Of a stretch of 64,000 nt of DNA, positions 28,936 through 32,169 are shown piece by piece. The position numbers were made by a program, and so were the translations under genes. The DNA is from Caldilineaceae bacterium (GTDB lineage Bacteria; Chloroflexota; Anaerolineae; Caldilineales; Caldilineaceae). The stretch is taken from the NCBI GenBank assembly GCA_022824025.1, contig JAJEBF010000014.1, positions 124,001-188,000 of the forward strand, written 5' to 3'. A model generated the notes under the pieces. The model was not told where the DNA came from. It did no database searches and worked only from the letters and a program-made list of their open reading frames with translations. How positions within the stretch are numbered: position 1 is the first letter of the stretch; every line of letters begins with the position of its first letter.

Positions 28936-30807
<1,872 letters not shown>

Positions 30808-30943: not shown

Positions 30944-30972
30944 TTGTCAGGCATGCGCAGTTGTGCTATATT
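30944..30972 (+). promoter_or_regulatory. Promoter of the 6S-like RNA
   Basis: TTGTCA (30944-30949), 17-base spacer, TATATT (30967-30972). Transcription would start near 30979, exactly where the closing stem of the RNA begins. Confidence 0.75.
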
Positions 30973-30978
30973 TTTCTC

Positions 30979-31167
30979 GCAACCCTGCAGTGTCCGTGAT
31001 TGACTAGTTTGAGGGCGAACCAACAACAAACTCAAGGGAGCTAGGCAAAGGTCTGTGGATGTGATAGCCCGCCCCACGAGGGTAGGGCAAGACGGAAGCG
31101 ACCAGCCGGCGCCCACCTGCGAACCTCGGTTCGTACCCACTGGATCACACGACTTTGCGGGGTTGGA
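30979..31167 (+). ncRNA. ssrS: Probable 6S RNA
   Basis: A ~190-base RNA bounded by a promoter and an intrinsic terminator. Its ends form a long interrupted helix: CAACCC (30980-30985) with GGGTTG (31160-31165), then UGCA with UGCG, GUC with GAC, and GUGAU (30996-31000) with AUCAC (31144-31148). A large open middle region follows, as expected of 6S RNA, which mimics an open promoter and binds RNA polymerase. The 5' part CAGTGTCCGTGATTGACTAG and the 3' hairpin GCGAACC-TC-GGTTCGT resemble positions of known 6S RNAs as I remember them. No covariance search was possible. It lies directly upstream of the PHP gene. Confidence 0.7.
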
Positions 31168-31171
31168 ACAG

Positions 31172-31200
31172 CGTCCGGGGCCACCCGGACGTTTTTCTTT
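31172..31200 (+). terminator. Rho-independent terminator of the 6S-like RNA
   Basis: CGTCCGGG (31172-31179), loop GCCA, CCCGGACG (31184-31191), then TTTTTCTTT. A strong classical terminator located 70 bases before the PHP start codon, so it ends the RNA, not a protein gene. Confidence 0.9.
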
Positions 31201-31269
31201 TCCAGACCCGCGGCTCCTGTCAACAGACGTGTGCATACCCTTGGACAGCAGCAATCGGAACCAACTGCC

Positions 31270-32169
31270 ATGGAAACCCAGCGCGACAGTTTACGCCAGC
31301 CCTATCCGGTAGACCTGCAGGTCCACAGCATCTGCTCTGACGGAACCGACACGCCGCAGGAACTGATCGCCAAAGCAGCAGCTCTCGGCATCCAGGTTCT
31401 TGCCGTGACCGACCATGACAGCGTTCTCGGCGTTGCCGACGCCCTCAAACATGGCGCCAAAGCCGGAATCCATGTTCTCCCGGCCGTCGAATTCAGCACC
31501 GCCCGCGACCGCGAAAACGACTTCCGCGACTTCGACATCATCGGCTACGGCATCGACCCGGCCAATCCCACCCTGATAGCAACACTGAACCGCCTCAAAG
31601 AAAGCCGCATCGAACAAAAATCGCGCCAGGTCGAACGCCTTCAGAGCTACGGAGTGCATGTGCCCGTCGAGGAAGTGTTGGCCCTCGCCGGCGGCGTTCC
31701 CGGCCGCCCCCACATCGCCCAGATAGCGCTCAAGTACAATCCCGACAGATTCTCCTCCTTGAACGACGTCTTCCAGCAGTACCTCGCCTCAGACGCTGAA
31801 AACTCCACAAACGTCCCCCGTTCCTTCATTCTCAGTGTCATCGACGCCATCGAACTCACCCATGAGGCCGGCGGCAAGGCCGTCCTCGCACACCCAGGTA
31901 TCTACCGCCGCATCCGCAGCCTCGAAGAGTCCCTGGCGCGGCTGACAGATTTCGGCCTCGACGGCCTCGAAATCCACTACCCCTACGCCGACGAAGGAAG
32001 GGACTCGACCGATAGACCGATCGAGTGCTTTGCCGAGCTGGCCGTCCGCTTTGGCCTCTTCCAAACCGGCGGCAGCGACTACCACGGCGAAAGAAAGCCA
32101 AATCGACTCGGCGAAGCAGGCCTCGAATTGGAACAATGGCAACAGCTGCAGGACATGAATGGATGGTAG
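31270..32169 (+). CDS. PHP domain metal-dependent phosphoesterase (RNase AM/YciV-like)
   Basis: A 299-residue PHP protein. Motifs: DLQVHSICSDGTDTP near residue 15, VTDHDS near 45, AVLAHPGIYRR near 200 and GSDYHGE near 270, matching the four metal-binding clusters of the family (5'-3' exonuclease or 3',5'-nucleotide phosphatase activity). In the first motif the usual HxH reads QxH, so one metal ligand is altered. Start ATG 31270 is preferred over an upstream in-frame ATG (31231) because homology begins just after it. Its stop overlaps the start of alr. Confidence 0.88.
   Translation: METQRDSLRQPYPVDLQVHSICSDGTDTPQELIAKAAALGIQVLAVTDHDSVLGVADALKHGAKAGIHVLPAVEFSTARDRENDFRDFDIIGYGIDPANPTLIATLNRLKESRIEQKSRQVERLQSYGVHVPVEEVLALAGGVPGRPHIAQIALKYNPDRFSSLNDVFQQYLASDAENSTNVPRSFILSVIDAIELTHEAGGKAVLAHPGIYRRIRSLEESLARLTDFGLDGLEIHYPYADEGRDSTDRPIECFAELAVRFGLFQTGGSDYHGERKPNRLGEAGLELEQWQQLQDMNGW

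Follow-up and report, generated by a model that had tools for sequence, protein, structure and literature searches.

A single 6S RNA gene next to aspS in a Caldilineaceae bacterium, with a shifted hairpin in its 3' bubble strand

Introduction

What is encoded by a stretch of roughly 190 bases lying between aspS and a PHP-domain protein gene in a member of the Caldilineaceae, a family that we take to belong to the phylum Chloroflexota? An earlier note, made from the letters of this DNA, had described there a promoter, an interrupted closing helix of about 19 bp around an open middle, a hairpin and a terminator. It had concluded that these make up the 6S RNA of the lineage, and had proposed the RF00013 covariance model and the pairing in related genomes as checks. 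6S RNA is a well-known small RNA that mimics an open promoter and thereby holds RNA polymerase. Its presence in the Chloroflexi has already been reported (Wehner 2014, as cited in PMC7726162), and the finding described here is the correct annotation of an already known RNA. The RNA is the bacterium's ordinary 6S RNA, save for a small lineage-specific change in one hairpin. The window referred to below is the whole 64,000-nt stretch of DNA that was analysed; feature coordinates are collected in Table 1.

Results

Identity and structure of the RNA. When the whole window was scanned against Rfam 15, the sole match was to RF00013 (6S/SsrS), at 30979-31167 on the forward strand; it is full length (model positions 1-187 of 187) and scores 61 bits against a curated gathering score of 46.4. 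Nothing else in Rfam approached its cut-off at this locus; an AgvB match at 31169-31197 (17.6 bits, cut-off 56) was rejected, as it comprises the terminator hairpin only. The genome carries one copy of 6S RNA, which reaches 156 bits with a lineage model that includes this sequence in its building set. Its size of 189 bases, closing helix, bubble, helix P2 and terminal arm are those of the RF00013 family, whereas the lengths of the bubble differ slightly and the terminal arm contains several non-standard pairs, the Rfam score being a moderate one. The folding energy of the whole RNA is -79.6 kcal/mol (z = -3.39), a stability reached by none of 200 shuffles.

Table 1. Positions of the 6S RNA gene, its parts and its neighbours in the window
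Feature	Position	Strand	Basis or remark
aspS (aspartyl-tRNA synthetase)	28936..30807	+	Pfam tRNA-synt_2, GAD, tRNA_anti-codon
Promoter TTGTCA-17-TATATT, extended -10 (TGNTA)	30944..30972	+	site search and conservation
6S RNA (ssrS), Rfam RF00013	30979..31167	+	covariance-model match, 189 bases
Closing helix P1, 5' strand	30980..30997	+	double-sided changes in 12 of its 17 pairs; 89% pairing over all cells
Helix P2, 5' strand (downstream duplex), predicted pRNA template	31013..31021	+	inner six pairs 98% paired
Predicted template base of the first pRNA nucleotide	31024..31024	+	putative, by alignment only
Upstream duplex and terminal arm (GGGAGC...GCGCCC and interior)	31036..31114	+	91% pairing in the five outer pairs
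3'-bubble hairpin UGCGAAC-CUCG-GUUCGUA, shifted register	31118..31135	+	alignment comparison
Helix P2, 3' strand	31128..31138	+	31129-31133 common to the 3'-bubble hairpin
Closing helix P1, 3' strand	31149..31165	+	paired with 30980-30997; same P1 covariation
Intrinsic terminator	31170..31202	+	stem and T-rich tail
PHP-domain protein gene	31270..32169	+	Pfam PF02811; 3' neighbour of 6S

The closing helix of the earlier note corresponds to P1; of its 17 pairs in the Rfam layout 16 are standard, and the other is the mismatch U13-U176. The middle, on the other hand, need not be open as the note had it: helix P2 can form there between the 5' strand GGGCGAACC (31013-31021) and the 3' strand GGTTCGTACCC (31128-31138). 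This structure is kept in relatives by compensatory change. In a MAFFT alignment of 46 sequences, made on sequence without structure fitting, pairs 37-158 and 38-155 of P2 alternate G-C or C-G with U-A, and double-sided changes occur in 18 of the 31 pairs examined (P1, P2 and the pairs at the start of the upstream duplex, the terminal arm lying outside this pair-by-pair test). Across these helices 89.7% of cells are paired, a measure biased in favour of the tested structure, since the latter derives from the way in which the first sequence matched the Rfam model. The covariation score is 0.318 versus 0.168 in shuffles, double-change cells number 152 versus 60, and all five covariation measures lie above every one of 500 shuffles. 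Such shuffles ignore relatedness, unlike the control in which partners were slid by 1-3 columns; there, pairing falls to 36-47%. Together with the RF00013 score, the compensatory change supports the note's identification of this RNA as the lineage's 6S RNA.

Promoter and terminator. The promoter that the note had read is indeed present, with TTGTCA at 30944-30949, a 17-base spacer, TATATT at 30967-30972 and a TG upstream of the latter; it is the only promoter-like site within a 501-base stretch, for which shuffles predict 0.1. Position 1 of the 6S model falls at 30979, and its distance of seven bases from the -10 element fits a transcription start point there. In 52 of 53 copies the extended -10 TGNTANNNT is found 3-11 bases 5' of the 6S gene, where about 3 would be expected. 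The terminator stem likewise starts where it had been placed, at 31170, five bases past the 3' arm of the closing helix, and is followed by a T-rich tail, terminator-like sites being common enough by chance that 0.6 would be expected in the stretch searched; a similar hairpin with a T-run stands 3' of 48 of the 53 genes. These conserved signals would fit an independent transcription unit of the size usual for 6S RNA, about 150-240 bases.

Distribution among relatives. Of 61 genomes, comprising this one and its 60 relatives, 53 gave an RF00013 match, with one copy per genome, and in 49 the score exceeded the gathering score. Among the eight Rfam-negative genomes, four (G027, G031, G036 and G046) were clearly matched by the lineage model, which had been built from 46 of the matched sequences, so that the idea of relatives devoid of 6S RNA was partly rejected. 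Only a weak match to this model was found in G039 (E 0.15), while G024, G028 and G033, which are less complete assemblies, matched neither RF00013 nor the lineage model; in G027 the gene is interrupted by a run of N. The four copies missed by RF00013 at E 0.001, L086 (G046), L087 (G027), L088 (G036) and L089 (G031), score 50-76 bits with a model built from the class, and L088 and L089, from the g16 genus, are the most divergent.

The gene neighbourhood. The conserved neighbour of the 6S gene is the upstream aspS and not the PHP gene. Judged from short fetched flanks, aspS lies immediately 5' of 6S in 38 loci, which comprise all 17 from the genus and 21 others from the family and class. PHP and alr, by contrast, stand 3' of 6S only in the loci of this genus, and the link to the PHP gene that the title of the earlier note had drawn is incidental for that reason. 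Relatives of the PHP protein in genomes named Caldilineaceae are 81-95% identical. A contig labelled Latescibacteria (L043, OX638377.1) encodes a PHP protein 71% identical to that of the window, with no 6S match within the fetched 8.9 kb; the assembly may be mislabelled, or the gene may have been transferred. In B. subtilis, bsrA (6S-1 RNA) is described as sitting between aspS and yrvM (PMC11077062). Since aspS flanks 6S both there and in these Chloroflexota loci, the neighbourhood spans two phyla, and it is either an old arrangement or a repeated coincidence.

The bubble strands. In the 5' strand of the bubble, CCAACA is nearly invariant among the 46 aligned sequences, and the motif GAGCCAACA resembles the pRNA template region of B. 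subtilis. From the positional match of CCAACA to the B. subtilis pRNA start, we predict a pRNA 5'-GUUGGUUCGCCCUC, beginning GUUGGUUCG. The 6S-1 pRNA of B. subtilis is given as 5'-GUUCGGUCAAAACUA (PMC12005410), and the two starts are similar, GUUCGG there versus GUUGGU predicted here.

The hairpin of the 3' strand, which the earlier note had also recognized, is present as GCGAACC/GGTTCGT at 31119-31125/31128-31134. Each of the two bubble strands contains one copy of the heptamer GCGAACC (31015-31021 and 31119-31125); GGUUCGU (31128-31134) can thus pair with either copy, which provides the basis for a switch between P2 and the hairpin. Outside the genus, the majority of the 36 sequences in the alignment have a hairpin ACCUGC-NNNN-GCAGGU that overlaps P2 by three bases. 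In all ten aligned sequences of the genus this register is broken at two positions, and the hairpin UGCGAAC-CUCG-GUUCGUA, or a close variant, overlaps five of the six inner positions of P2; this sequence type is found in 17 of 17 genomes of the genus. Two other Caldilineaceae genera also have a shifted hairpin that competes with almost the whole inner P2, UGCGAAC-CCAG-GUUCGCA in G017 and, by eye in one sequence, the similar GCGACU-CUCG-GGUCGA in G027. In that same single sequence the hairpin pair A145-U152 appears by eye to have become C-G with loss of the matching P2 pair, a change that favours the hairpin. The difference in energy between P2 and the hairpin lies between -3.5 and +2.7 kcal/mol in the shifted forms and between -7.6 and +3.2 kcal/mol in the others, and does not decide between the two helices in either. 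In an aspS tree the three genera with the shifted hairpin are placed apart, with weak support, which would allow for one to three origins.

Discussion

Family membership, structure, conservation and the promoter and terminator signals come directly from the present analysis; polymerase binding, pRNA synthesis and release would follow the pattern of known 6S RNAs (PMC8876501). Situated between aspS and the PHP gene, the 6S gene would have a promoter of its own, and its product most likely takes the form of a rod whose internal bubble mimics an open promoter. In stationary phase this RNA would bind and retain RNA polymerase that contains the main sigma factor. On the return of nutrients the polymerase would copy the 5' bubble strand into the short predicted pRNA, whose synthesis would open helix P2; the freed 3' strand of P2, GUUCG, could then close on CGAAC of the 3' bubble, and this closure may help to eject the polymerase, as in E. 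coli. Taken as a whole, a single Caldilineaceae 6S RNA gene with its own promoter and with the proposed hold and pRNA-driven release of polymerase is almost certainly the right reading of the locus.

Another kind of RNA could in principle present a similar outline, as Ms1 RNAs, which bind core polymerase without a sigma factor, are described as structurally related to 6S RNA (PMC9130861). Yet the full-length match is to RF00013, with no other Rfam family near its cut-off, and the bubble holds a conserved motif resembling a pRNA template. In addition, a HAD hydrolase gene has been described next to Ms1 in most species, whereas no such flanking gene was found here, the neighbours being the PHP gene and aspS, the latter as for B. 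subtilis 6S-1; an Ms1-like RNA is accordingly very improbable. Even less credible is the idea that the RNA acts in cis as a regulatory leader for PHP, as might be suggested by its location on the same strand about 100 bases 5' of that gene's start codon: a terminator separates the two, and the RNA persists in genomes in which no relative of this PHP gene was found next to it.

Within the 6S reading, the shifted hairpin is the feature that departs from the usual pattern. In E. coli an extended 3'-bubble hairpin is reported to form once P2 opens and to contribute to release, while the 6S RNAs of B. subtilis and A. aeolicus are said to be without one (PMC8876501). The E. coli hairpin is alike in that it joins the 3' bubble to the 3' strand of P2 and is possible only after P2 opens, according to the same source; it differs in having nine pairs versus seven here and in belonging to a different phylum. 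By analogy, the putative role of the shifted hairpin in release resembles that of its E. coli counterpart. The 3'-bubble hairpin of B. subtilis, on the other hand, is described as short and preformed in the free RNA, with a collapse helix being used (PMC8876501), whereas the hairpin here takes over most of the inner P2. We raise as a tentative idea, leaning somewhat against it, that some Caldilineaceae have changed the release switch by moving the hairpin several bases, from ACCUGC/GCAGGU to UGCGAAC/GUUCGUA, and so acquired one of the E. coli type outside the Proteobacteria, possibly more than once. A search of the literature, which was not exhaustive, found no account of this shifted hairpin.

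The present work contributes an annotated 6S RNA from a family that is little studied and mostly uncultured, together with a lineage model that detects 6S copies missed by Rfam. Accounts of the step at which 6S RNA releases RNA polymerase differ between E. coli and B. subtilis, and the shifted hairpin of the Caldilineaceae offers a natural comparison for this step.
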